NCBI GenBank assembly: GCA_030998015.1
Contig: JARWMV010000008.1
Span: forward strand, 310,001-374,000
Reading direction: 5' to 3'
Length of the DNA: 64,000 nt
Source: Ceratorhiza oryzae-sativae
Lineage: Eukaryota; Basidiomycota; Agaricomycetes; Cantharellales; Ceratobasidiaceae
This document shows positions 5,901 through 21,016 of the stretch, one piece after another (within the stretch, counting starts at the first letter, position 1; each line of letters starts with the position of its first letter). The translations under genes and the position numbers were made by a program. Below the pieces are notes generated by a model, which searched no databases, was not told the origin of the DNA, and saw nothing but the letters and a program-made list of their open reading frames with translations.

Positions 5901-6822
5901 TCGATAGTTGCTTGAATGGCTTGCATCAGGTCCCCTAGCCGCTTGTTAAAGTTCCTGACCGTGGTGACTTTTCCTGTAGGCAGCGCATCAGTTCGTGTTT
6001 TAAGTTTTTCGTTGAACTCATCCCAATTCGTCTTCCTGTAGTTCCTTCGAGTCTCTGTCTTCGCCCTTTCGCACGTGAGGATTATCACTGTGTGGATTGC
6101 AAAATGATCGGTCGAAGTGATATTTGGGTCTGGGGAGGCTGTGCAGAGGTCGACGTAGTCTTCGAGTCTTGACGAAATAAAAACGTTGTCTAGTCTAGAA
6201 AGGTTCTGAGTAGTGTACAGTTTATGTGTAGGCATCCCACCAGGTAGGGTCATAACGAGGTCGTTGTTCGAGGTCAGGTCTATCAACTTCTCCGCTGCCT
6301 CCATTCGTGCGTCCGTGAAAAGGTGTTCGTTCCTTGGTTCATCCCAAAGTGGATGATGTCGATTGAAGTCGCCTAGTAGTATAACGTTGATGTGTCTGGG
6401 TAGACTTGCAAAGTGGGATTCCAAGAGTTCGATTGTATCGTGTGTGCGCCGTCGTTATAAACATTGTAGATCCTAGTTTTCCCTTGAGAGGTTTCGAGTT
6501 CGATTGCTGTAACATCCGCTGTTCGTAGAGCTACTGTTCGCCAACAGTTGGTTGAGAGTTTCCGATTAACTAGTAGAAGCGATCTAGAGCGAGGTTGGCC
6601 GTCATGAAGGTGGTTCGTAGGGTAGGCTGAGATCCATTTAGATGTAATTCCAATAGCGTTTTTATCTTTGAGTGCCGGTTCCTGAATAGCTAGTATATCC
6701 CAGTTGTCTGGGTTTACTGATTTCATAAGGTCGTGGTGAGCAGTAGGAGACGTGTTAACATTTTGTTGCCATATCCTGAGTTTTCCAAGTCTTGTGTTGT
6801 TTGCGTTTGGTCGTCTAGGCAT
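2944..6822 (-). pseudogene. LINE ORF2 polyprotein: AP endonuclease, reverse transcriptase, RNase H; three frameshifts
   Basis: The ATG at 6822 overlaps the end of ORF1 by 8 nt (ATGCCTAG). The domains are in the usual order. The endonuclease begins LRIWQQNVNTS, with AIQEP and later GDFNRHHPLWD and DNVFIS. The RT has FLDVSGAFPN, GIDQGCPLS and the catalytic box GYIDDV. The RNase H follows with YTDGS, YEAEIIGL, VDNQAV and HEGVDGNEKAD, and a CPNC...H....C knuckle lies near the C terminus. Frame breaks fall near 6430 (inside the endonuclease), near 4530 in an A-run (after RT), and near 3915 (before RNase H). Each looks like a one-base change, because sensible protein continues in the next frame. 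All catalytic boxes read intact. ORF2 ends with a TAA/TAG-type stop at 2944. Confidence 0.88.
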
Positions 6823-8902
6823 GAGCGGTTTCTGGAGATACTAGCGTGCTGGGGGAAGAGGAGGTTGGGGCGTTGGTGTATTCGGTGAGTGTTGTTTGTC
6901 TAGGAGGGATGACCAATCCGCCTAGTGTTGGTTGAGCTAAGTTATCCGGTCGTGGGTGGGCTTCCTGAGGGCCTAGTGTTGGTTCAACTGGAGGTGGTGC
7001 TGGCGCATAAGTGTGCTCTTTGCGTGTGCGAGGGGGTCGGAAGCGTTGCTCGATCTCTCTAGCTCCAAGGAGCTCCCATGTCCACGCTTCACTAGTAACA
7101 AAGAAACGATAGCGGTTATCTGGGATTCTGTCAGAGAGGTTGGCACACCTGGTAGCGTAGCCTGGGCAGGATGTCGACCAGGTTGGGTGTCCCTTGGTCT
7201 TGCACGTTACGCAGTAGGTGTCTAGCCGATTCGTGCACTTCTCGGTTCGATGTTCGCCCCCGCAGGTGCCACACGTCTGCGTGGCAGAGCAGTCCTTAGC
7301 TTGGTGACCTGGTAGCTGGCAATTATAGCATCGCAGCGGGGTTGATAATAGCTTCACCGTAGAGCAGTCCTTCCCCTCTAAAGTCATTCGATTCGCAATC
7401 CAGAGGTTTGCCGTCTCCTTCGTCGTACAGTGGACAATCAAGTGTGCGTGTCTTTGCCCTGGCTCGCGTTTTGAAGGGTCCCTGATCCACCTCAGGCTGA
7501 GTATCGAGCCCTTCGGAAGGTTGTTGGTCTCTTCTAGATAATCGACTGTCGCCTTCTTTGCAACATCAAGGGAGATTGGGACGTGCTGAACTAGAACTGG
7601 GAATTTGCGTTCTCGAATCTGGACTGCACAGCCAAAGCCATCAGTAAATCTGTTGCAAACGTCTGGGCGCACCAGCCAACTCCTCGCTTCCACTGAGTTC
7701 ATTTTGTAGAGCAGCCCCCCATTTGCTTGTCTTGCGACCAAGGTAAACTGAACTTTCTCGGGTTTCCCGTTGAGCAGTTCTGGCTCTACAATCTTCTCTA
7801 CCGCCTTCCGTGCCTGTTCAAGTAAATCCTGTTCAGCAACGTTCTGGAGTCCCCTCTGACCCGAGACCACTTCTGGGTCAATCATCAGTTGCTTCTCTCG
7901 TCTCTCTTCTCCTCGCCTTAATCTCTCTGCTCCTTGTTGAACTTGTTTCTCCGATAGAGAGTTCTCAGGGGCTACCTCTTCCAGTGGAGGCCAGACTCCC
8001 CCCCTTGCCACTGCCGCCGCGTACGATCCACTTCTGCCCCCCGTCTCCTCTTGTCCCTCCACTGGTTCATATCCCCATCCCACTCTTCCTGCTGGCTGTG
8101 CTCCCCAAACTGGCGGAGTTGGGTCAGTGCTCGTCGCTGGGGGTATCACTGGGTCTTTCGCTTGCGCGATTGCTCCCTCCTCCCTCATCTTCGTCCATTC
8201 TCCCCTTTCCACTTCAAGTTTCCTCAGAGTAGCCTTCATCCCATCCAGTACTCTATCTAGCAAGGCCCTTTCAAGCTCCTGCTGTCTCTTCTCCTCCACA
8301 AAACGGCCCCTCTCCCCAGCTAACTCCCTTTTTTCTTGCGTAAGGACCTCCTCCGTCGCACTCACTGTCTCCTCCCTCTCTTCAAGTCTCCTCTTTTCTT
8401 CCTGTAGACCCTCCATCACCTCCTTCTTTGCGCACTCCCTTGCCTCGTCTCTAACGCTCATATATCTATGAAAGGACGCGTCAGCCGTGGCCTCCGAAAC
8501 GATTTTTCCAAGCGCGTCTTTTAACAGTGTGCCTACTGCTACTGGCACCTCCCAAACTTCCTCGAAGTCCGAGTCTCCAGCCGTCTCCTTGCCCGTGAAG
8601 TTCAAGAGTATTTCGATTAGCTTCTCAAACGCAGGGTGAGAGGTGCCCTGGATGAGGCCTCTGCTCGACAACTCCTTGATTGCAACTGTCGTCGACATGG
8701 CCCGTCGCACCGGCATAGTGGGTGGCTCTACAGGCGCTGGGGCAGTCAACAGATTCAGCGCAGTAAGGACAACTGGCGAGGGAGGGGTAGAGATCGCGGA
8801 AAGACTGGTAGCACGGTTTCCTGCTGGGGTGTTCGCTCTCCTAGATGTCGCAACGCCTGGTAGTGATGGTTTCGGTATTATATTTCTGTTTCTGGTAGAC
8901 AT
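6815..8902 (-). CDS. LINE ORF1 gag-like RNA-binding protein
   Basis: An intact frame of about 695 codons from the ATG of MSTRNRNIIPK. The open frame extends upstream to 9037, but that part includes target-site sequence, so the internal ATG after a short 5' UTR is the better start. From N to C: a Pro/Thr-rich disordered segment, a long charged coiled coil (EEKRRLEEREETVSATEEVL), a central domain, then three zinc knuckles (CYNCQLPGHQAKDC, CGTCGGEHRTEKC and CVTCKTKGHPTWSTSC) and a Pro-rich tail. This matches ORF1 of Tad1/I-type LINEs, which binds element RNA. It ends TAG at 6815-6817, inside the start of ORF2, suggesting reinitiation or translational coupling. Confidence 0.88.
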   Translation of the reverse strand: MSTRNRNIIPKPSLPGVATSRRANTPAGNRATSLSAISTPPSPVVLTALNLLTAPAPVEPPTMPVRRAMSTTVAIKELSSRGLIQGTSHPAFEKLIEILLNFTGKETAGDSDFEEVWEVPVAVGTLLKDALGKIVSEATADASFHRYMSVRDEARECAKKEVMEGLQEEKRRLEEREETVSATEEVLTQEKRELAGERGRFVEEKRQQELERALLDRVLDGMKATLRKLEVERGEWTKMREEGAIAQAKDPVIPPATSTDPTPPVWGAQPAGRVGWGYEPVEGQEETGGRSGSYAAAVARGGVWPPLEEVAPENSLSEKQVQQGAERLRRGEERREKQLMIDPEVVSGQRGLQNVAEQDLLEQARKAVEKIVEPELLNGKPEKVQFTLVARQANGGLLYKMNSVEARSWLVRPDVCNRFTDGFGCAVQIRERKFPVLVQHVPISLDVAKKATVDYLEETNNLPKGSILSLRWIRDPSKREPGQRHAHLIVHCTTKETANLWIANRMTLEGKDCSTVKLLSTPLRCYNCQLPGHQAKDCSATQTCGTCGGEHRTEKCTNRLDTYCVTCKTKGHPTWSTSCPGYATRCANLSDRIPDNRYRFFVTSEAWTWELLGAREIEQRFRPPRTRKEHTYAPAPPPVEPTLGPQEAHPRPDNLAQPTLGGLVIPPRQTTLTEYTNAPTSSSPSTLVSPETAHA

Positions 8903-9022
8903 TCCGGCCAGTTCCAGTAGTGAAGCTAAGTAGCAAAGAGTATGAAAAGTGTCGAAAAACCAAGAATGAGCGACCCAGATTTCAAACAAGTCCAGTGTGG
9001 CTGTGCTTGATGGTGGTCGTCC

Positions 9023-9105
9023 ATCCAAAGTGTGCATCTGGTTTCAATAAGCCCACAATATTAGCACATTTTGAATCCTACCATAATATGATCAAACATT
9101 ACAAC
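9023..9105 (+). pseudogene. pogo-type transposase, bridge fragment (fragment 2)
   Basis: This 83-bp piece lies between the LINE and chromovirus C. It starts with the LINE TSD and reads SGFNKPTILAHFESYHNMIK. It continues in frame across the removed C element into YNIPPEHQWNMD at 26323. It shows that both insertions hit the same gene. Confidence 0.85.
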
Positions 9106-9481
9106 TGTCACGAACTGACACGCATATATCCACTCTATAATATTTTCTCAATTTACTACATTTTATGAGATCATCTTCAAAACATACTTGCCTTTTATGG
9201 TATATCTGTGTCATGTGACTCATGGAATGTTCCGGACTGGTAACCGAGATGTATTTCAACTCCAATGTGAAATTCCGCAGTTCCGCAGTCGCTTCTACTG
9301 CTTCTATCTCTTATCTGTCATGACTCACTGTACAGACTTGTTTGTTATGATGTGGCTCGTACTATGTATATAAACCAGGTCAAGTTTGCAGAGGACTCCT
9401 CAAGAACTTGACCTCTTGTTGAATACAAGTTCTTTTATTTTCTTACCATTTTCCTTGTCACCTGACTTGTCGTTGTTGACA
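9106..9481 (+). repeat. 5' LTR of chromovirus C
   Basis: 376 bp, TGTCACGAACTGACA...TTGACA. It contains a TATA box (9367-9374) and, 34 bp downstream, the self-priming sequence. It differs from the 3' LTR mainly at CG/TG or CG/CA positions. Confidence 0.95.
9367..9374 (+). promoter_or_regulatory. TATA box of chromovirus C
   Basis: TATATAAA, placed so that a transcript would begin close to CAAGAACTTGACCT (9401-9414), the sequence that matches the primer-binding site. The position is inferred. Confidence 0.6.
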
Positions 9482-9812
9482 TCAGGTCAAGTTCTTGACA
9501 ATCGTAAGTCTCAGTGTTGTCTGGGATACTTTTGGAACGCTGTTGGCATCGTCTCAAGATAACTCCCTGTTGCCTTCCCCAATCCTACTCCACCTACCCA
9601 CAGCCACAAGATATCATTGCCCTATACACACCTCTGTGAAACCTTGCATAGTCAGGTCCCTCACACGTTGTAACAAGCTTTGGTTCTCTAATCTCTTTTG
9701 TCAACAAGAGGTGGGGTCGCTCATTGCCCTTAAGTAGCTGAGCAACGGAGGTCACCTTCCTATTCCAATAGACTCAGGAAAGGGTCTATTTTTCTCTTTT
9801 ATCATGCTCTTG
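9482..9812 (+). other. Leader of chromovirus C up to the copy A insertion
   Basis: Untranslated leader after the primer site. The last 9 bases (ATG at 9804) open an accessory ORF that continues at 20085 after copy A. No other gene is seen. Confidence 0.6.
9484..9497 (+). promoter_or_regulatory. Self-complementary primer-binding site of chromovirus C
   Basis: AGGTCAAGTTCTTG lies 2 nt after the 5' LTR. It is the exact reverse complement of 9401-9414 inside the LTR, just downstream of the TATA box. This is the arrangement of Tf1/sushi elements, where the 5' end of the RNA folds back as primer. No tRNA 3' end is required. Confidence 0.75.
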
Positions 9813-9817
9813 CTCGA

Positions 9818-10373
9818 TGTTATGACCTGTCAAACAGACATAACAAAACAACCAAATATTTCTACAGATTTATGGCATTTTTCCTAAGCGGAACAAGCCA
9901 TAAACAAGGTCACATGACCTCGGCGCTTAGCCAGCGCTTACGGTGGTTACCCTGAACTTGCTCCAGCATTTCTCTCCATTGTTACTTGGAGCGAGGAGCG
10001 AGTTGTCACGTGATCTTGGCGCTTACGGCAGGATCATGTGACCTCAGCGCCTACCCCTTGGACCTTGTGTGGCTCTATAAGATTCGGAGCCGCACAAACT
10101 TAAGACAAACAATTACCTAACCCGTAGTACTGTACATAACCTACACCTACTGCGGAGTGTGCTTAGATCATACGTCCGCAGCCACCGCAGCCACAGGTAT
10201 ATATAAGGAGGATAAAGCAAGACTGGACGCCTCAGCTTGCTTTATCTCGTCAACCACCATAGACCATAGCAAACACTGTAACTAGAACGCTAAATACATA
10301 CTGCATAGCACCAAACTGTAAACGCAGCCACTACTTAAGTGCTCCACAAGGGAGCCTCCAGAGGGTCACGACA
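9818..10373 (+). repeat. 5' LTR of copy A, one 113-bp unit
   Basis: 556 bp. U3 carries a single repeat unit (GTTACCCTGAACTTGCTCC... to a GTCACGTGA-type palindrome). Compared with the 3' LTR it shows T or A at many former CpG sites (for example ACATGAC for ACGTGAC). A hairpin GATAAAGCAAG/CTTGCTTTATC lies at 10211-10246. Confidence 0.95.
10198..10206 (+). promoter_or_regulatory. TATA box in the copy A LTR
   Basis: TATATATAA sits 36 bp upstream of AGCTTGCTTTAT (10234-10245), the proposed 5' end of the element RNA. The same arrangement is present in the 3' LTR and in copy B. Confidence 0.65.
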
Positions 10374-10375
10374 TT

Positions 10376-10387
10376 ATAAAGCAAGCT
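10376..10387 (+). promoter_or_regulatory. Self-complementary primer-binding site of copy A
   Basis: ATAAAGCAAGCT, 2 nt after the LTR, is the reverse complement of AGCTTGCTTTAT at 10234-10245, as expected for Tf1/sushi-type self-priming. Copy B has the same site at 61091-61102. Confidence 0.75.
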
Positions 10388-10494
10388 CTTAACTTAACTA
10401 GTGGCGAACATAAGTATACTGCACAGATACTAAGGGCTGAGTACACAAGAAAACCAGCTAACTCCTGTGATACATAAGAGAACATAAAGAAACA

Positions 10495-12318
10495 ATGTCA
10501 CAGAGACCACAAACTCGATCTCAAAGCAGAGTGGCAAATAGTAGGCCACAATCACCCAAACCCATTGCTTCCCCAGAGGCTGAAGGTAACCCAGATGAGA
10601 CCCTCCAAGGAATGCCAGGGGGGTTGCCACAAAACCCACGACCAGTGGCTCAACCCAACCCCACTCGGGCCCCCATCCTGGGAGGGGAAATAGGGGGAAT
10701 ACCACTCCGCAGCCCTCAACCGCCAATTCACCTGATAAATCCAGACCCAGAAGATCTCAAATCCAGAGAGGGATGAGGTAGAAGATATGACCCGAACCAT
10801 ATGAACAAGGCACGGCCTTGGCGGAAGAGGCAAGGACACAACCCCAGCCAGGTCCTGGAGCCATAGCCACTGCCAACCCTATTCACACCATTGCCACAGC
10901 CATCAGGGCGGGGCTCAAGGAACTTAGAGACAATAATCATAGGGAACTAGAAAAGGCAATCACGGGTATAAATCAGTGTCAAATATCACTAACCCGACAA
11001 GAAGGAAACGTGGACTGGATGGTAAGGTCAATGGAAACATCCAACAAAAATGTCCTCTATGTGGCAAAGAACCAGGACAACCTAAAAGCAGAAATGGGGA
11101 ACCTGATAAAAGAATTAAAGGACATCTCCATGGAAATAAACCGGGTACTGGGAATGCAAGAGCGAAAGCTCGAAAGCTTAGAGAAGAAAACTGAAAACAC
11201 AGGGGAGATCCTAATCGCACTAGAACACGGGTAACCGATCTAGGAAATGAGCTCCGAAACAACTGAAGCAGGAAGGCCAAGGGAAAGGACAGAAGAAACC
11301 AGGGGAAGAACTAGGGTGGTCATAGGAAGCCCCTCACGATCCCCCTCAGCCTCCCCAGTACAAACACCCTTTCTGGGAAGAACCTTCCAGGCTGAGTCCA
11401 CAATAAGACCCTGAACAGAACCTCCATCCCAAGCAAACCAACCTACCCTTGCTGCAAACCACACCCTAAGGAGGCGAGACTAGGGAGACCCAGCAAATTT
11501 AATGGGAAAAAGGGGAAGGAAGCAGAGAACTTCATAATCAGCATGGAACTTTTCTTTGCTGACTATGACGAATCAGCCTTTGATGACCGAAAAAAGATAT
11601 CTGCTGTGCTAATGAACATGGAGGATGGGGAAGCAGCAAACTGGGCACAACCTTACTGCCGGAAACTACTAGCAGGCGAACACACAGGTATTCTTGCATC
11701 CTGGAAGGATTTCAGGAAGGGATTCCTGGATGCTTTTAATGACCCAGTCATAAAGGAAAAGACCATCGGAAACTAAGGAAATTAACACAGACCAAGAGTG
11801 CATTGGATTATGCTACCCAATTCGGATCCTGATCCAAGAGGTAGACTGGAACCAGGAAGCCCTCAAGGACCAATTCAGGGAAGGTTAAAACCCGAAGTAC
11901 GACAAGAGATCTTAAGGATTGAAGTACTGGCAAATGAGGCTGAAGGTCCATCATATACCTTAGATCAATTAATCGACTTTGCCTGCAAAATGGATGACAT
12001 GCAGTTTGCAAACCAGAAAATGAATACAAGGACCAGCAACTCATCAAATTCAACCTGGGCACCAGCGAAATACAAACAAGGGGGGAACAAGCCTTTAGGG
12101 ACCAGCGGCAAACAGGGAATACCCAAACCAACAACATGGTAAGGATACCAAACAGTGAAAAGGACAGGCGAAGGAAAGAAGGACTCTGTATCAAATGCGG
12201 TAAATCAGGGCATGTCCTGAAGGAGTGCCGAGGCCAGTGGACCTACGACAAAGCTAAGATACAAGGGAAGGCCAGCAGACAAGTTGAGGAAGAAAGCAGC
12301 TCTGAGTCGGAAAACTAA
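10495..12318 (+). pseudogene. Copy A gag, frameshifted
   Basis: The N terminus MSQRPQTRSQSRVANSRPQS is followed by a coiled-coil region, a retrotransposon capsid domain (MELFFADYDESAFDDRKK... AANWAQPYCRKLLAGEHTG) and a CCHC knuckle CIKCGKSGHVLKEC. Comparison with copy B locates small deletions: 2 nt near 10763, 2 nt near 10802, 1 nt near 11227, and others near 11240, 11470, 11768, 11820 and 12070-12110. The protein packages element RNA in the cytoplasmic particle. Gag ends TAA at 12316-12318, and pol follows in the -1 frame. Confidence 0.85.
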
Positions 12319-12335
12319 TTGGTCCTGCCACTTCC

Positions 12336-15300
12336 ATGTTGGAGGACCCCAATATAACCCCTACCGCAGATGTATGTTACCTCAAGAAGTCTAGTAATCA
12401 ATCAATAATATACACTACGGTAGAGGGAATCATGGAACCAGCTAAGACGCTGATTGACTCAGGATCTTCAACCAACTTCATCGATAAGGCCTATTCAAGG
12501 GAAAAAGGGATCCCAACCACTCCCCTCAAACACAAGAAATCAATTGTGGCCATTGATGGGAATGAAATCAAGGATGCCATAGAAGAAAGGGCAGAACTAA
12601 ACATTGAAGTGGAAGGGAAGACACTAAAATGCTCCCTTTATGTAATGACCCTAGGTGATACAGACATAGTCCTAGGGAAAGAATGGCTTGAAGAAGCAGA
12701 ACCTATCATAGATTGGAAAGACCTTACCATCTCATACCCAAACGAAATCAAGGCAAGGGCAGCAAGTGAAGGCCTACAAATCCCAGAAGAATTTAGGGAT
12801 TTTGAAGACCTATTTGGGGAAGAAGGTTTCCAAGAACTTCCACCCCACCAAGGTAACCTAGACTTCAAAATGGACCTGATCGAGGGAGTGGAGCTGCCAA
12901 AGCCTGCAAAGAGGTACAGTATGTCGCCAGCAGAAACAAAGGCGCTCAGGGAGTACCTAGAGGAGGAACTAAGAAACGGGAAAATAAGGCCCAGCCAGTC
13001 AGTTGTAGCTGCACCCTGCTTCTATGTGAACAAAGCAGATGGAGGGCTTAGGTTGGTAGTCAACTACTGTAAGATGAATGACATCACCAAGCCAGACAGG
13101 TTTCCACTTCCAATCCAAATAGAATTGATTGAGAGACTGAAGGATGCAACCATCTATTCAAAAATGGATGTTCGATGGGGGTTCAACAACATCAGGGTAA
13201 AAGAGGGAGACGAATGGAAAACAGCTTTCAGGACAGGAGAAGGCCAGTTTGAATGCTTGGTCATGCCATTGGAGTAAAAGAGGGACCAAGAACCTTTACC
13301 AGGTTCATGATGGAAAAGTTCCGTGATATAATAGACGATTATGTGGTAATCTACATGGACAATGTACTAGTGTTTTCCAGAAACAGGGAAGAACACGTAC
13401 AACATGTCAGGGAAGTGTTAAGAAGAATGAGGGAAAACCACCTCTTCCTCAAACCACACAAGTGTCAGTTCTTTGTGAAGGAGGTAAGCTTCATGGAATT
13501 GTCATATCCCCAGAAGGGATATCGATGGAAAAGGAAAAGGTAAAGGCAGTTCTAGAATGGCCAGAACCTAACACAGTAAAAGAAGTCCAAGCCTTCCTAG
13601 GCTTCGTGGGGTTCTATAGAAGGTGGATAGAGAAGTTTAGTACCTTAGCCAAACCCCTCACAGATCTCACCCAAAAAGATGTCAAATTCCTGTGGGAAAG
13701 AAAACAACAGGAAGCATTTGAAGCTATCAAAGAAGCAGTAGCAAGAGAACCAGTCCTGATCCACCCAAACCCAAACAGGCCATACATACTGGAAACAGAC
13801 GCCTCAGGAGTGGCCATGGGGGGGTACTAAGCCAAAAGGGTGATGACAACCGATTGCATCCAATTGCCTTCCTATCGAAGAGCTTCACCCCACCAGAGAA
13901 AAATTATGACACCTACGACAAGGAGTTGCTTGCAATTGTTAGGTCCTTAGAGCACTGGAGGTTATACTTAGAAGGGACAGAGGAACCTATTGTGATATAC
14001 ACTGACCATAGGAACCTCCAGTACTGGCAAAATGCCCAGATGTGGAATAGAAGGCATGCCAGATGGTATCTCACTCTGGCACCCTTCAATTTTCAGATTG
14101 TGTATAGACCAGGGAAACTCTCACAGAAGCCAGATGCCCTTTCCAGAAGGAGCGACCATGGGGATACCCCTATGGAACCACAGATCATGATTCCAGAAGA
14201 AAGGTTCATAGGTTTCATGGCAGAAGTACAGGGGAATTTCTGGGAAGAGCTTAAAGAAGCTCAGGAAGAAGACAAATCTATCAGATCCTTAAGGCTGAGT
14301 GTGGCAAATAAAGAACAACTACCGCCCTCAGTACAGAAGGAATTTAGACGGTATGAAATGAAGGAGGGCCTATTAAGGTATGACGATAGGCTCTACATCC
14401 CAGATGACAAGGACTTGAGGTTGAGTCTCCTTGAGGAGTGCCATGATGCCCCAGTGGCAGGTCATCAGGGACAAGCCCGAACACTAGAATTACTATCAAG
14501 GGATTACTATTGGCCAGGAATGAAGGCCCAAGTAAACCGATACGTGGAATCTTGTGAAACGTGTCAAAGAAGCAAAGGACACAAACAAGGCACTCCCCTG
14601 AAGTCCTTACCAATCCCATGGAAACCATGGGCAGATGTCGCATATGATTTCATCGTCAAATTACCTGTCTCAAAGGGGTACGACAGTATCTTGACAGTTG
14701 TAGATCGCTTCTCCTGGCAGGCCCATTTTGTACCATGTCTGGAGAGCACCAATGCAGAAGAACTGGCAGAAATATTCATAAGGGAAGTATGGAGACATCA
14801 CGGGACCCCAGAAACCACTGTCTCAGACCGAGGGCCAACCTTTAACAGCCAATTCCTAAAGGCCCTATACAAAGGAATTGGGACAAAGCCCAGATTCTCC
14901 ACTGCTTTCCATCCAGAAACAGATGGTCTGTCGGAAAGGACAAATCAATGGGTAGAAGGGTTCTTAAGAACCTTCTGCAATTATAGACAAGATGATTGGG
15001 TAAAATGGTTACCCATTGCCGAATTCTGCCATAACAACCACGTAAATGCTACAACAGGACAAACCCCATTTGAAACAGTATATGGAAAAAACCCAAGATG
15101 GGTTGTCCGAGAGGGAGAAGAACCATCTGAGGCACCGCTGCAGACAACATGCGTAATCAAATGGAAAAGGTATGGGATGAGGCAAGAGCCTCAATGGAAT
15201 TACACCAACAAATGGAAAAGAAAGGGAGGGAATTCAAGGTAGGAGACAAGGTTTGGCTGCTCCTAACAAACCTCTCGTCCAAGAGACCCTCCAAGAAACT

Positions 15301-15747
15301 GGACAACCGAAAAGGGGGGCCCTTTGAAATCACAGAAAAGATCTCATCCCATGCATATCGCCTGGACCTACCTAAAACTATACGTGTACACAATGTATTC
15401 CATGTAAATCTCCTCTTGCCTTTCACAGAAGATAAAGACTTCCGAAGAAGGCAGGCCAAGCCACCACCAATCATAACGGAAAAAGGAGAGGAGGAATACA
15501 CAAGGTGGACCACATTGCAAATTATGAATGGCGGAATGGCGAGCTGTTTTACCAAATCAGATGGAAGGGCTACGACCCAATAGAAGACACCATGGAATGT
15601 GCCAGCAAGTTTGCTGACATGAAAGAGGTTCTAAATGACTTGCAAAGGTGCTTACCAGACGCACCAATGCCAGTCAAGACAAGTCAGCACTCAGGTGACT
15701 TGAAAGGCAGGCCAAAGAGAACCAAACGAGGATCTGGAAAGCTTTAA
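12336..15747 (+). pseudogene. Copy A pol: protease, RT, RNase H, integrase, chromodomain; frameshifted
   Basis: Protease has LIDSGSSTNFID. RT reads to CLVMPLE, where a lost C (restored in copy B as MPFGVK) shifts the frame at about 13268. Its catalytic box is YMDN, not YMDD. RNase H has ETDASG, KELLAIV and TDHRN. Integrase has an H-H-C-C finger ending CETCQRS, then YDFIVKL, VSDRGPTF and the Glu of LSERTNQWVE. After a break near 15140-15200 the GPF-type module (KGGPFEIT) appears. The chromodomain (VDHIANYEWRNGELFYQIRW) is in a third frame at 15505-15747. Further breaks lie near 13500 and 13830. Integrase plus chromodomain would target insertion to modified chromatin. The element is a chromovirus. 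Confidence 0.9.
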
Positions 15748-15800
15748 AAAGAGCCATCCAGGATACCCAAGAAAGGCCAGAGCCTGCTCTACCACCTCAC

Positions 15801-16653
15801 TTGCACCACAACACACCTGCAAAACCCCAAAACATGCCTTTCGCCACTCACCCAGTCGCACATCCCAACCGTTACACCCCACTTGCTGAAAATCAGGTGG
15901 CCCCACTTTGGCAGCCACCCACCACCAGGCGGCCAGCACCCTACCCTGGCAGGGAAAATCGTCCTAAACCAGGGATGTACTGCTCCAGTGTGGAAGACGC
16001 CCAGAGGTACGCTGAACGACTGTTGCCAGGGGCTAACCTAGTATACATCCCAAAGAAGTTAAGGGATGAAAGGAACTGGATTGACGATGACAAGTACCTG
16101 GATCCCAGGTTAGGGGTCCTGACATGGCATGGAAGCCGGAAGCCAACAACAAGAAACGCCTTGTTAAGAACACCGATGTATTGTCGACAATATCGTGGGA
16201 CCAACAGTCGACGTGGTGACCAAGGCAGCAAGACAACAGAGGAGGGCCACAGGCCAAATGGCAGACGGAGGGGACTGGGAGGTGGAGCGCCGGGCAAAGG
16301 CATTGCTGGAAGAATGGAAGTTGACACCAGCTGCACCGTATGTGGGACTGCTCGAAGCAACTACCACTGATGAGATGTTTACTGCTATCAGGACAAAGCA
16401 GGCAAACATGAATGACTTCCAAAATTGGGTGAAGGTGCACCCAAACAAAAACACCAATTACGACACTGATATGACAAGCCTTACATCAAGCCTAGAATCA
16501 CTGGTCGTGGCTGAGGAAGAAGCCAAGCCAGAAATAAAGGAACCCACCCTGGACCCAGCTGCGGAGGAAGCCAAACAGGACTGGGACCGGTGGGAAAACA
16601 AGCTTGTTGAAGCTCTGGAGGAGGTGCCACTGTTGGAACCAACCCCCATATGA
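15801..16653 (+). pseudogene. Unidentified ORF after the chromodomain (possible pol tail or separate gene), one frameshift
   Basis: Two overlapping frames, 15801-16370 and 16195-16653, read as one protein of roughly 280 residues broken by a one-base shift near 16160-16180. The first part is Pro-rich, then MYCSSVEDAQRYAERLLPGA and YIPKKLRDERNWIDDDKYLD. The second part has WEVERRAKALLEEWKLTPAA and an acidic C terminus (EEEAKPEIKEPTLDPAAEEA). I recognise no family. Upstream the frame is open back towards the chromodomain in another phase, so this could be a C-terminal extension of Pol or a cargo gene. It is convergent with the antisense gene, 82 bp apart. Confidence 0.5.
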
Positions 16654-16735
16654 CCACTTTGCCTCCCACAAATTGTCTCCCGAATGTATAAGAGTTTTTA
16701 TTTTTCTTTTACACACCAAACTTAATACATTTCTT

Positions 16736-17277
16736 TTACTCTCTATTTTTACGTTTGCCCTTGAGGGGCCGGGTATAGGGCTTCTTGCCCCTGTTATCCT
16801 TCTTATTGGTCCAAACAACTGACTGGGTAGTGGGCTGCAGCCAAGGAGCCTCCCCCCCTGGGAAGTCGGCCATGTAGTTCTGGAAACACCCAGAACCAGA
16901 CACTGCAAAGGGCGAAGCCTCATCAAACAAGGGAGCAGAGCCCTCCTTGAAGAATTTGGCAAGAGCAGCCTGGTGAGACCGCTCCTCAAAGGACTTGTAC
17001 TCCTGATCAACGAGTGCCCAGACACGCTCAAGGGTGGCCTCATGGGCCCGACCATCAAGGAGGATGCGCTCTTCTACAGAACAAGTTAGCTACGTGAGAA
17101 TGACGAAGAACGAACACACATACCTGGCACCCCACAGAAGAACCAGTCCCCAACACCTTGATAGAAGTCTTCAAGGGAGGCGTCGCACACAGCATCACAG
17201 TAGGCGCAGTACTCCCCCTCAGGGAGAGACCAGCAGGTGCAGTCAAGGGGATTGTAGTTAAGGGAAATAACACGCAT
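16736..17277 (-). CDS. Antisense two-exon gene of unknown function inside copy A
   Basis: Exon 1 is 17277-17124, exon 2 is 17073-16736, with a 50-bp intron (17123-17074) starting GTATGT and ending CTGTAG, and a CTAAC branch site 11 nt before the acceptor. Splicing joins two long frames exactly and gives 163 residues. The N-terminal third is Cys-rich (CTCWSLPEGEYCAYCDAVCD), the middle is acidic-helical (ERVWALVDQEYKSFEERSHQ), and the C terminus is strongly basic (KKDNRGKKPYTRPLKGKRKN). I do not recognise it. Its orientation, divergent from Rep across a shared intergenic region, copies the ambisense layout of CRESS DNA viruses, where the opposite-strand gene is the capsid gene; that role is only a guess. 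Earlier in-frame Met codons exist (to 17364). Confidence 0.6.
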
Positions 17278-17394
17278 AGTAAAGAACGGGATGAGGAAGG
17301 AAAACAACAAAACCACAAACATTAAAAAATCATGGTGCAACACAATAACCTGCACAAACATCAAAACAAGGACTGGTCAGGTGACACCAACAGA

Positions 17395-17516
17395 CACGTG
17401 ACCATCTGCCAGAAAACAAACAACAAAGCATGGGAATCACATGACCTAGCCTAGTCACGTGACCACCTGCCAGAAAACAAACAACAAAGCACAGGAATCA
17501 CATGACCTAGCCTAGT
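17395..17516 (+). repeat. Two 61-bp direct repeats beginning CACGTG
   Basis: Units 17395-17455 and 17456-17516 are nearly identical (CACGTGACCATCTGCCAGAA...). A third CACGTG follows at 17517-17522. They could act as iterons bound by Rep or as activator sites; the same palindrome, in GTCACGTGA, fills the LTR repeats. Confidence 0.85.
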
Positions 17517-17534
17517 CACGTGAATATACGCTAT

Positions 17535-17553
17535 CCCCTAACTACCGGAGGGG
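17535..17553 (+). other. Small hairpin in the intergenic region
   Basis: CCCCT / AGGGG stem with a 9-nt loop AACTACCGG, directly after the direct repeats. It is a weak candidate for a nick-site hairpin; 5 bp could be chance. Confidence 0.3.
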
Positions 17554-17736
17554 TCGGAGAGGGGGCACTGACCAAAGTGGGGGAGCGGAGGCCCCGAGCG
17601 TAGCGAGGATCAAGGCTGACGTGGAGGAACGGATGGGAGGGCACCCCTCGGAGATGCGTCATCACCAAAATAAGGTCATGTGATCACAACAAATGCAAGA
17701 CAGAGTCATGTGACAATCAAAACGGACCTTGCAGCT

Positions 17737-17743
17737 TATATAG
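17737..17743 (+). promoter_or_regulatory. TATA box upstream of Rep
   Basis: TATATAG, 40 bp before the first possible ATG (17777, other frame) and 83 bp before the Rep ATG at 17820. It suggests that Rep has its own internal promoter, independent of the LTR. Confidence 0.5.
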
Positions 17744-17819
17744 ACAAGCACAAGGCCCGAGATAACCCGCACTCTCATGCTCTCTTCCCAGTCCCCAAAT
17801 ACCTCTAAAACTGTAAACG

Positions 17820-19106
17820 ATGCTAAGCGGAAATGGATCGAATGTGGCAACACCCCAGCCAAGCGGATCAAGCGAAGGGCAGAGGTCGGCGTCACCATCG
17901 CCAGTGCCCTTGGTATCAAGCCGAGCCCCCTCGCCTGCTTCTATGCGGCCTACGCCGACGGATCAAGGGTCCGAAGAGCTGACCGAAACCGTGCCGGCCC
18001 CTCGGTTCCGCGTCCAGACCAGGGCGGTGCTGCTGACCTGGTTGAAGCTACACGATCAGCCCTCAAGTGGGCTTGTTGCCCGATACAAGGCATTCTGCCG
18101 CCAACGGCCAAATCATTGGGCAACTTTGGCAGTGGTGGAACGCCACAACCCCGAGGAACCGAACTACGACCCGGCCCGGCCCCTCCATGTCCATGCCCTC
18201 TCCATCAGTCAGGAGCGGAAGGGCGGCTGGAACACCCAGAACACCCGGTTCTGGGACTTTGAGGGGCAACACCCCAACATCCTGCTGAAGGACCTCAAGG
18301 ACGGACCAGGAGGCAACCCAGCAAGGGATGCCTTCAACTATCTTTGGAAGGACGTTGGAGCTAATGGCGAGGAGATAGAGGACCTGATGGCAGGGGACCT
18401 GACCTTGGAAAGGTTGGAGGAGATTTTGGTAAAGGGAAAGGGTGGAAAAAGGTCAAGGATGGAGGCAGACCTGGAGGATGGGACGGAGATTGTTGCCTCA
18501 GCAACAAAACAGGAGTACTACCAGGCGTTCAAGCGCCTCCGCCCCCTCCAGATGGTGACAACGTGGAACTCGGTATGAGCATATGCCAAGTACACATACA
18601 AGGAAGACCGGGGTTGCATGCCTGCAATCCCTGTGGAGTTAGAGGTCCCGGAAGACCGGGAGCACATCGACCGAGCAGACAGATGGTTTGCTGAGGAAGT
18701 CGAGAAGAAGGGAAGAGGGGTGCGCCATCGCATCCTGGTGATAGAAGGAGAAACTGGAACGGGGAAAACGGCATATGCACGATCCAAGGGCTGCCACAGC
18801 CGGATGTGCAATGTGTGGAATATGGGCAACTTGTCGGAAGATGCCGACATTTGGATCCTGGATGACATGGTCCAGTCGAACAGGAAGTACTCGCTCAAGG
18901 CCCTGAGCCAGTACAAGGCGGACTTCACAGGCAGGTGCGCGCACGTGAAATCGATGAAGGTATGGCCAACAGTCATTCTGGGAAATAGCTGGTCAGCAAT
19001 CATGAAATGTTGGTCGGACATAGAGGGGGAAGAAGGGGACTTATGGGTATCAAGAAATGTGGAATGGGTGTATGCAGGAGGAAAGCCATTCTTTGTATTC
19101 CCTTAG
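17820..19106 (+). pseudogene. CRESS-DNA-virus-like Rep: HUH endonuclease plus SF3 helicase, one internal stop
   Basis: Two ORFs in the same frame, 17820-18578 and 18618-19106, are separated only by TGA at 18576-18578. The first (252 residues) has a disordered N terminus, motif I AVLLTWLK (69-76), motif II PLHVHAL with His123 and His125, a geminivirus-like RFWDFEGQHPNI (143-154), and motif III YLWKD with Tyr174 and Lys177. The second has Walker A GETGTGKT, Walker B IWILDDM and a motif C PTVILGNS. This is the domain order of gemini/genomovirus-like Rep, which nicks the origin and unwinds DNA during rolling-circle replication. It is not a Helitron Rep-Hel: one Tyr, SF3 and not SF1. The TGA could be a CpG transition of CGA. 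An overlapping frame from 17777 makes the start uncertain. Confidence 0.88.
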
Positions 19107-19223
19107 AATAATTTATGGTACTGTACAACTTCTGCTATGCCCATCCAAACGGTTGGGGCTTTCTGAGAAGAAGCAGACAAATCCTCACCCCTAAATAACC
19201 TCCACAACAAAGAAAAGAAAAAC

Positions 19224-19350
19224 AATCTCATGTAACGGAGAGGTTAAGGGGTCTAGCCTGACTCAGCCTGACCTCATCGAACAATACTGAATCAGCCGAA
19301 AGGTCGTTGGTTCGAGTCCAGCGCCCTTAACCTCCTTGGTGCATGAGATT
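19224..19350 (+). other. tRNA-like inverted-repeat structure with a Pol III B-box
   Basis: Outer arms AATCTCATG (19224-19232) and CATGAGATT (19342-19350) are perfect complements. Inner arms AGGTTAAGGG (19241-19250) and CCCTTAACCT (19324-19333) are too. Inside is GGTTCGAGTCC (19309-19319), a perfect B-box in a T-arm-like stem GTTGG/CCAGC. The 5' part CGGAGAGGTTAAGG resembles the D-arm of Leu/Ser tRNAs. It does not fold as a standard tRNA: 19 extra bases separate the T-arm from the outer stem. It may be a decayed intron-bearing tRNA gene or a functional hairpin. Confidence 0.4.
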
Positions 19351-19401
19351 CCTTTTGCATAAGGAACTAAACCATGTCTTGAGGTCCCCCACGACATGTC
19401 C

Positions 19402-19412
19402 AAAGGGGGGGA
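19402..19412 (+). promoter_or_regulatory. Polypurine tract of copy A
   Basis: AAAGGGGGGGA ends 3 nt before the 3' LTR at 19416. It primes plus-strand DNA synthesis. Its position after Rep proves that Rep lies inside the retrotransposon. Confidence 0.85.
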
Positions 19413-19415
19413 TAA

Positions 19416-20084
19416 TGTTATGACCCGTCAAACGGACATAACAAAACAACCAAATATTTCTACAGATTTATGGCATTTTTCCTAAGCGGAACAAGCCATA
19501 AACAAGGTCACGTGACCTTGGCGCTTAGCCGGCGCTTACGGTGGTTACCCTGAACTCGCTCCAGCATTTCTCTCCCTTGTTACTTGGAGCGAGGAGCGAG
19601 TTGTCACGTGATCTTGGCGCTCACAGAAGGGTCACGTGACCTCAGCGCTTATGGTTGTTACCCTGAACTCGCTCCAGCATTTCTCTCCCATGTTACTTGG
19701 AGCGAGGAGCGAGTTGTCACGTGATCTCGGCGCTTACGGCAGGATCACGTGACCTCAGCGCCTACCCCTCGGACCTCGCGTGGCTCTATAAGATTCGGAG
19801 CCGCACAAACTTAAGACAAACAATTACCTAACCCGTAGTACTGTACATAACCTACACCTACTGCGGAGTGTGCTTAGATCATACGTCCGCAGCCACCGCA
19901 GCCACAGGTATATATAAGGAGGATAAAGCAAGACTGGACGCCTCAGCTTGCTTTATCTTGTCAACCACCATAGACCATAGCAAACACTGTAACTAGAACG
20001 CTAAATACATACTGCATAGCACCAAACTGTAAACGCAGCCACTACTTAAGTGCTCCACAAGGGAGCCTCCAGAGGGTCACGACA
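19416..20084 (+). repeat. 3' LTR of copy A, two 113-bp units
   Basis: 669 bp, the 5' LTR length plus exactly one further 113-bp U3 unit. CpG sites are better preserved than in the 5' LTR. It is followed by the TSD CTCGA. Confidence 0.95.
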
Positions 20085-21016
20085 CTCGAGTACGTCTCTG
20101 ACGGAACGCACAGCCCTCAAGTGGCACAACCTTTTACAGAAGACCAGTGCTGCCATCTGTGTGGGTGGTTCGGACACCTGTCGATCCACTGTTTCACCCT
20201 CAACTTGGTCGAAAGTATCCTTGAAGAAGCCAGGCACATCGATTTCAACCGAGTAGTAATCATCAAAGTCCGCCCCCAGAAAGTCGGACATGCTCAACAA
20301 GCCTTTGTCACTGAGCCAGGTGCCCCTGAGTGCAAAATTTGCCATCAGGCAAACGGAGCCACCTTCCCAGCACGCTGCCCTTACTGTCCTAAGAAGGACA
20401 AATTCCTTTATTACTACACCATCCCCCGCAACCAGCTATAAGCTGGAGAACCTTGGCCAACAGCTTCTTTGTCACCTGCTAAACACTATCGAAAACTTCC
20501 AAGACAGGTACCATTACTACTGGAATAAGTACGAAGAAACCTGTGAAAAACTTCACAAAGCCAAGGCCCATTGCGTATACCTAACCAAGCGGTTGCGCGA
20601 ACACCAGGAGGACTACCTATCCCTCCTCCAAGACCACCTCAGACTAGAATCTATAGTCCAAGAATCAATTGCACCCCAAGAGTACACCTTCCCTGTCTTC
20701 TCAACACCATCAGACCTTCCTCACCCCACCTTTCTAAGTGGCACGGGCTTGCCAATTCAGGAAGAAGCACCCCTTCCGGCAGCCCAAATCAATCCTCCCC
20801 AAGGAAGCACTCCTTTGGGATCAAATTAAACTAAAGAGGGTGGAGTGCCCATATCATTGCCAAGACACCAAAAGTTGGGACTTGGACGATACTTGGTTGA
20901 GGTTTGCAGGAATCGGGAACTTCAAAATTTACAGACTCGTGAGGGGAACGGAAATCCTCTATTACCAAAACAATTCTCAATTCCCTGTACTTCCTTACCA
21001 TCTCCATCGCCTTTAA
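20085..21016 (+). pseudogene. Accessory zinc-knuckle/coiled-coil ORF of chromovirus C, upstream of gag
   Basis: The ORF starts at ATG 9804 in the C leader, is cut by copy A after the codons of MLLL, and resumes here. It reads into QCCHLCGWFGHLSIHC, a C-x2-C-x4-H-x4-C knuckle, and a second Cys/His group CKICHQ...CPYC. A frame break near 20420 leads into a coiled coil (YHYYWNKYEETCEKLHKAKA). A second break near 20800 leads to SWDLDDTWLRFAGIGNFKIY and a stop at 21014-21016. The total would be roughly 300 residues. I know no such ORF as standard between LTR and gag in chromoviruses. It might be an RNA-binding factor; this is inference. Confidence 0.55.

Follow-up and report, generated by a model that had tools for sequence, protein, structure and literature searches.

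How does the gene of a virus-type replication initiator come to lie inside a retrotransposon, and what might it do there? The question is raised by a 64,000-nucleotide stretch of the Ceratorhiza oryzae-sativae genome (assembly GCA_030998015.1, contig JARWMV010000008.1, positions 310,001 to 374,000; termed the window), in which positions 9818-20084 form one copy of a high-copy Ty3/gypsy-type long terminal repeat (LTR) element. Between pol and the 3' LTR of this element sits a gene with the motifs of the replication initiator (Rep) of circular Rep-encoding single-stranded (CRESS) DNA viruses, an HUH nickase followed by a superfamily 3 (SF3) helicase. LTR retrotransposons and CRESS viruses replicate by routes that are thought to be unrelated. 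Here we show that copies of this LTR family regularly include Rep and that strong purifying selection acts on the larger 3' part of the gene, and we weigh how Rep may act. The initial annotation, made from the sequence of the window, proposed that a retrotransposon had captured a CRESS-type replicon; the ambisense layout of the cassette fits this proposal, whereas the searches described below found no donor for such a replicon. Beyond the features given there, the cassette holds a sense open reading frame (ORF3), a small spliced antisense gene at complement(17277-16736), a non-coding region between the two divergent genes (termed LIR) and a hairpin in the 3' untranslated region (UTR).

Searches of the 48.8-Mb genome, in which 150 of 226 candidates were scored, gave 151 Rep matches, 150 of them listed. 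The corresponding search with the integrase region (INT) scored 85 of 1351 candidates and returned 93 rows; eight of these, each a second piece of a copy already represented, were dropped, which left 85 loci. Downstream of INT, 78 of these 85 loci have Rep DNA. For 68 of them a listed Rep is found on the same strand less than 9 kb downstream, at 2.4-4.1 kb in 64 cases and at 4.5-8.4 kb in four, where INT and Rep may come from two different copies; at locus C243, Rep is 9.6 kb from INT, with foreign sequence beside the cassette. The DNA of 16 INT loci without a listed Rep was read: nine hold Rep DNA, incomplete in some of them; the antisense gene and LIR without Rep occur in one and only a piece of ORF3 in another; one meets a contig edge and four have no cassette. 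The LTR search gave 40 scored matches (656 candidates), 16 of which flank a listed Rep. Other copies of the family therefore carry Rep as well.

All 30 Rep loci at the top of the list show the junction between the 3' UTR and the LTR, as do 18 of 20 loci sampled from the 66 lower-ranked ones without a listed INT; the two exceptions retain only the distal part of the LTR (L100) or no LTR (L084). LTR sequence of the family thus adjoins Rep in 49 of the 50 loci checked (30 plus 19 of 20), and the place assigned to Rep by the initial annotation, between the chromodomain end of pol and a polypurine tract adjoining the 3' LTR, holds beyond the window copy. Because diverged copies share one junction, a private target-site duplication (TSD) around Rep is very unlikely. 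A single chance insertion is refuted. Adjacency to the family LTR in 49 of 50 loci is expected of an element-serving gene, and we consider it likely that Rep serves the element. A cargo with a host-serving or antiviral role would have a proposed precedent in the viral superfamily 1 (SF1) helicases captured by insect retrotransposons (available text of PMC6338049), but it is a very improbable explanation of a gene kept between pol and the polypurine tract of a high-copy element.

The Rep frame contains, in this order, LLTW, LHVHAL, FWDFEGQHPNI, NYLWK, GETGTGKT, IWILDDM and VILGN, in agreement with the motif order first noted in the window. The window copy is interrupted by an in-frame TGA at 18576-18578, and many listed copies contain stops; stop-free copies exist, and the full 428-codon frame is open in at least 13 of 34 loci, a lower bound because loci without the filter motifs are unlisted. 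Protein searches found 50 relatives, the named ones all from Ceratobasidium (best 77% identity) and the others including metagenomes. Among 23 aligned relatives, counting those that have the position, the motif residues are nearly invariant: T73 (18/19), H123 (21/21), H125 (20/21), H151 (22/22), Y174 (21/22), K177 (22/23), K316 (18/19), D348 (17/17) and N389 (16/16). We take these to be the residues of motifs I-III, GRS, Walker A and B, and motif C.

The profile match anticipated by the initial annotation did not materialize in that form, since no curated profile reaches its cut-off for Rep. Gemini_AL1 gave no match, and its controls were silent too. Gemini_AL1_M matched nine of the 23 relatives at E <= 1, all below the curated cut-off (best P0009, E 0.001, 19.5 bits against a 24-bit cut-off; part of this test was run on 10 of the 23). 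In the members tabled, the match spans about positions 10-106 of the 107 in the profile and ends at Walker A. When the genome was searched in six frames with Gemini_AL1_M, three weak places came up (E 0.5-5.9), and none of them is a listed Rep locus. Two AlphaFold2 models of Rep are poor, with predicted local distance difference test (pLDDT) values of 33.7 and 48.6. The second model shows, at low confidence, the order strand-helix-strand-strand-strand-helix, that of HUH domains; Foldseek searches of PDB and BFVD returned nothing at E 0.001, and their hits were uninformative. PDB sequence searches had no Rep among their matches. IMG/VR scans with Rep gave no free viral relative; a motif pattern marked 24 candidate stretches, the shortest contig being 8140 bases, and a second pattern none. 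PLSDB gave no tblastn match, and PHROGs held nothing relevant.

Could the protein instead be an unrelated P-loop ATPase whose HUH-like motifs arose by chance? The lack of any significant profile or fold match would agree with this, as would the failure of the Gemini_AL1_M genome search to hit a listed Rep locus. Moreover, nSTAND3 and AAA_22 match as weakly as Gemini_AL1_M (11 and 6 of 23 relatives), PRMT5_TIM matches four relatives, and other unrelated families match one or two each, single members at E 0.005-0.007 and down to E 0.0048. Weak nSTAND3 and AAA_22 matches are to be expected of a P-loop protein. Seven nearly invariant motifs in the correct order, a nearly full-length Gemini_AL1_M match at the expected place and a predicted HUH-like order of strands and helices, albeit of low confidence, make the chance explanation improbable. 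From its ordered motifs and the weak, position-consistent Pfam match, the protein is very probably a CRESS-type Rep.

The family comprises two subtypes, A and B, and the window copy belongs to A. For Rep codons 163-428, which cover motif III and the helicase, comparison of A with B gave a nonsynonymous divergence (dN) of 0.048 and a synonymous divergence (dS) of 0.791, with a ratio of 0.061 (0.038-0.094; 42 pairs), in contrast to a dN/dS of 0.82 (6 pairs) among four decayed sister copies. Choosing open copies biases such estimates against stops, not against missense changes. Strong purifying selection thus acts on the larger 3' part of the gene, and the maintenance of Rep over a long time is well supported. 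The gene was divided by region because the undivided ratio of 0.113 (0.071 without CpG codons) mixes two histories. For codons 1-162, with motifs I, II and GRS, dN is 0.026-0.062 and dS is 0.07, no higher than within subtypes; no purifying selection is visible there because the A-B split is too recent in this part. Among copies of one subtype, the ratio for the whole gene is 0.43 in A (15 pairs) and 0.31 in B (21 pairs). Compared with the sister family described below, where dS is near or past saturation, the ratio is 0.079 for A and not computable for B.

These values bear on the view that Rep is a neutral passenger, an old nested insertion of CRESS-derived DNA in one master LTR element. Such an origin would suit the stops in the window Rep and in many listed copies, as well as the lack of a purifying-selection signal in codons 1-162 between subtypes. 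It is already contradicted by the ratio of 0.061 at a dS of 0.79, set against 0.82 in the decayed copies, and by the retention of the cassette in two diverged LTR families; we give it hardly any credence.

Along the cassette, identity between the window copy (A) and locus L025 (B) rises and falls: in the best aligned pieces it is 75% at the end of ORF3, 87% in antisense exon 2, 97% in antisense exon 1, 96% in LIR (367 columns), 94% in the 5' part of Rep, 85% in its 3' part and 77% in the UTR (220 columns). Seven of the 32 loci typed on both sides are subtype recombinants (four B-A and three A-B), and the 3' part of Rep agrees with the UTR in subtype in 34 of 34 loci. The identity profile and the recombinants together indicate that a segment of about 1.2 kb was exchanged between otherwise old lineages. 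This exchange island (about 17100-18305; loci L001-L038) comprises antisense exon 1, LIR and Rep codons 1-162, all near-identical between subtypes, so that the likeness of LIR is at least partly due to recent exchange rather than constraint. Template switching in reverse transcription explains the island. Geminivirus origins are hot spots of recombination, and a bolder reading would trace the island to recombination at an origin.

The same cassette order is found in a sister LTR family, one copy of which (C20:285605-295968) was checked for its LTRs. These are 653 bp long, 94% alike to each other and about 65% identical to those of the window. Compared to the window, this copy shows 71% identity in the DNA from INT to the chromodomain, 76% in a part of LIR of about 190 bp, and 62% and 70% amino acid identity in antisense exon 1 and Rep exon 2, respectively. 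Across sister-type loci, INT identity is 66-70% (three loci) and Rep exon 2 identity 70-73% (four copies). INT and Rep have diverged about equally between the two families.

Sister-type Rep genes carry a 61-nt intron (GTAAGC...ATAG) at codon 88 in all five copies (C12, C237, C90, C20 and C238), and exactly these 61 nt are absent from Rep of the window family. With the intron removed, the C90 copy reads V-A-R-Y-K-A-F as in the window family, and the other four have W for R. Judged from protein letters, the metagenome relatives P0023, P0046, P0053 and P0066 have an insertion at this site, P0024, P0026, P0044 and P0058 apparently start in or near it, and P0009, P0020, P0022 and P0031 lack an insertion. 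On a 28-row tree, in which seven rows received no label since published gene models may already have had the intron removed, intron presence changes four times, and at least three of the changes are forced by well-supported branches. We read this pattern as repeated precise loss, as expected of passage via spliced RNA, and the clean absence of the intron points to a Rep gene passing through RNA; repeated gain may be the alternative.

The rest of the cassette gives Rep the setting of an ambisense unit. The predicted antisense product has 163 residues after splicing. Both exons are matched in 32 of 34 loci (a few partially), with donor and acceptor visible, and three of the 32 (L002, L007 and L018) have internal stops in exon 2. 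Exon 1 retains 61.5% and 64.7% amino acid identity in two sister-type loci, and the A-B dN/dS, given for exon 2, is 0.25 (80 pairs, about 108 codons, 18 loci extractable from 19 chosen as open-looking). With the capsid gene of a CRESS-type replicon in view, the product was compared with known proteins: no homologue was found at E 0.01, and no Pfam match exceeded its cut-off. LIR contains a 61-bp tandem repeat (17392-17513), four CGGAG motifs (17546, 17555, 17586 and 17649) and, on the Rep side, a TATA box (17737-17742). CACGTG occurs three times in LIR, once in the 5' LTR, five times in the 3' LTR and once in the remaining internal region.

How Rep acts can be proposed as follows. A Ty3/gypsy chromodomain lineage would have stably acquired a CRESS-virus-like ambisense module, made up of Rep and the small antisense spliced gene diverging from the repeat-bearing LIR. 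Expressed from its own promoter with the TATA box in LIR, Rep would enter the nucleus and bind LIR, with its CGGAG motifs and its tandem repeats as the candidate sites. It would then nick and unwind element DNA at LIR, most likely in extrachromosomal circles formed after reverse transcription, and so provide more DNA copies for integration. For the explanation as a whole, up to Rep acting on element DNA through LIR, we regard the case as evenly balanced. Rolling-circle amplification as the mode of action is put forward with more doubt than confidence. Still more speculative, and on present indications unlikely, is an element that would use two modes, reverse transcription with integrase and rolling-circle replication of circles by its own Rep from an origin in LIR. 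If this two-mode version is true, the element would be a fusion of retroelement and CRESS replicon into a single replicating unit, and the exchange island would be an origin-linked recombination hot spot.

Several results weigh against this explanation. Besides the profile and model shortfalls, the missing selection signal in codons 1-162, the within-subtype ratios, the recently exchanged LIR and the orphan antisense protein reported above, three concern rolling-circle replication itself. The canonical CRESS nonanucleotide NANTATTAC is absent from both strands of the element. The fold of LIR positions 17524-17670 (147 nt) is not unusually stable against shuffled sequences (z 0.10). No tandem concatemers were seen in four stretches with close same-strand Reps (about 2.5-10.3 kb apart), chosen by eye from the Rep list with neither TSDs nor upstream halves examined. 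A rolling-circle tandem origin was considered for these four and rejected. In three (L102, L103 and L104), the 3' LTR runs straight into internal sequence at unrelated positions; they appear to be same-orientation insertions of family copies into one another. In the fourth (L101), the second Rep has its own LTR downstream.

The main rival to replication is that Rep is an accessory regulator, which would use its HUH and SF3 domains to bind specific sites in LIR and perhaps the LTRs and control transcription or host chromatin, without replicating circles. The partly conserved LIR, with its TATA box on the Rep side and its repeats between two divergent genes, speaks for such a regulator, and so do CACGTG motifs common to LIR and LTRs; the lack of both an origin-like nonanucleotide and an unusual hairpin points the same way. 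Geminivirus Rep can downregulate host DNA methyltransferases (available text of PMC6338049), and strong CpG-type decay is found here. Against a regulator, the 23 relatives conserve motif residues in the nickase and the helicase domain alike, which goes beyond what DNA binding alone would require. Regulation is possible but rather unlikely. To return to replication by Rep, a high-copy retrotransposon whose Rep selection has preserved makes it possible to test directly whether a retroelement can use a viral rolling-circle initiator.

Table 1. Coordinates in the window of the element and of the features of its cassette
Feature	Position	Strand	Evidence
TSD CTCGA, 5' copy	9813..9817		sequence
5' LTR, TG...CA, 556 bp	9818..10373	+	repeat comparison
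gag region, broken frames	10471..12318	+	ORFs, Pfam
pol: protease (PR), reverse transcriptase (RT), RNase H, INT, SH3, chromodomain (chromodomain below cut-off)	12306..15747	+	ORFs, Pfam
Sense ORF3	15699..16653	+	ORFs, locus comparison
Antisense gene exon 2, basic C-terminus	16736..17073	-	locus comparison
Antisense gene intron, predicted, 50 nt, GTATGT...CTAAC...TAG	17074..17123	-	locus comparison
Antisense gene exon 1, starts MRVISLNYNPLDC	17124..17277	-	locus comparison
LIR, non-coding region between divergent genes	17278..17819		sequence, locus comparison
Rep gene, 428 codons, HUH and SF3 motifs	17820..19106	+	ORFs, motifs, relatives
3' UTR structured block, tRNA-T-arm-like GGTTCGAGTCC	19222..19351	+	folding, alignment
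Polypurine tract region, abuts 3' LTR	19400..19415	+	sequence
3' LTR, 669 bp	19416..20084	+	repeat comparison
TSD CTCGA, 3' copy	20085..20089		sequence

The element anatomy collected in Table 1 is, in our judgement, practically certain. The TSD reported by the initial annotation stands. The element does not end near 19415: the 3' LTR, 113 bp longer than the 5' LTR through an internal tandem duplication, carries the end to 20084. Both LTRs begin with TG and end with CA. Aligned over 556 sites, they show 12 differences, and 11 of these are CpG-type transitions, indicating a young insertion with decay chiefly at CpG; strong CpG decay is apparent in the genome by the same count. The gag region has DUF4939 and Ty3_capsid matches, both below cut-off, and a CCHC knuckle read by eye at its 3' end. 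In the window copy pol is frameshifted and PR, RT, RNase H, INT and SH3 are matched piecewise, whereas locus L031, in which different sequence takes the place of the 5' part of the element, has pol as a single 1147-residue frame from protease to chromodomain. Its order is RVP_2 (28-138), RVT_1 (241-401), RNase H (464-595), H2C2 (702-758) and rve (783-871, below its cut-off). SH3_Tf2-1 is matched strongly, and Chromo falls below its 25.1-bit cut-off in both the window (E 5.7e-05, 23.4 bits) and L031 (E 0.00047, 20.5 bits). The listing of inverted repeats in 9000-20500, with a lower limit of 60 bp that would pass over a 37-bp terminal inverted repeat (TIR), is empty, and no transposase is among the Pfam matches of the ORFs tested. 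Upstream of the element, a 742-residue open frame (6815-9043, minus strand) has coiled-coil-like and CCHC-like stretches by eye and is possibly a gag-like or long interspersed element (LINE) ORF1 protein.

ORF3 is broken in the window copy and open as a 340-residue frame in L031; no Pfam family exceeds its cut-off. The 3' UTR block (L077:572-697 in another copy) folds into a long hairpin with z -5.3, kept in the A, B and sister families (14 sequences). Two-sided changes are seen in three of 35 pairs, and pairing is broken in 13 of 490 cells, in an alignment and fold that were built jointly. ARAGORN finds no tRNA gene there despite the conserved tRNA-like hairpin, and the three Rfam matches are all at chance level. 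On the plus strand, a long open frame at 17744-18262 overlaps, in a different reading frame, with the 5' part of Rep, and a portion of it (AYADGSRVRRADR) is found again in gene models of Ceratobasidium AG-Ba. One AG-Ba gene model (P0025) has Rep fused to a tail like antisense exon 2 (tblastn E 3.5e-5 to L031), which suggests that the Rep and antisense pair is present in AG-Ba in a different arrangement.

Among the closest known systems is a geminivirus-like transposable element described from Tuber melanosporum (Liu et al. 2011; available text of PMC3198968). It shares with the present element a fungal host, multiple copies that arose by recent amplification and a gemini-type Rep. According to the same text, it has TIRs of 37 bp and two transposase ORFs but no obvious TSD, whereas Rep lies here inside an LTR retrotransposon with a 5-bp TSD; the term retrotransposon does not occur in the main text of that article. 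On the retrotransposon side, LTR elements with additional ORFs between pol and the 3' LTR have been reviewed (PMC7264820, available passages), and the title of one reference there names Boty brtn of Botrytis cinerea. The words helicase and geminivirus do not occur in that review, and none of the available passages names a replication initiator; compared to these elements, Rep and the antisense spliced gene form an ambisense unit. LTR elements of bdelloid rotifers have a captured enzymatic ORF3, a GDSL esterase or a DEDDy exonuclease (PMC5408684, available text), and resemble the present family in having an enzymatic third ORF fixed per family; 'Rep protein' and geminivirus do not occur in that source.

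Further parallels are the RNA-virus SF1 helicases captured by retrotransposons (PMC6338049) and the AlkB demethylase of orchid Ty3/gypsy elements (PMC9289625), where retrotransposons likewise have a fixed enzyme of nucleic-acid metabolism from a virus or a host. Among the hits listed in a literature search, with thin coverage of subscription journals, preprints and Repbase reports, there was no report of a CRESS Rep in an LTR retrotransposon. The presence of Rep in this family reveals one route for the persistence and spread of such genes in eukaryotic genomes. In the available text of PMC6338049 and PMC9289625, the captured gene is an SF1 helicase or AlkB, with neither an HUH-SF3 Rep nor a non-coding replicator-like region. 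Altogether, captured genes in retrotransposons are already known, whereas the Rep replicator module is, as far as we have seen, new.

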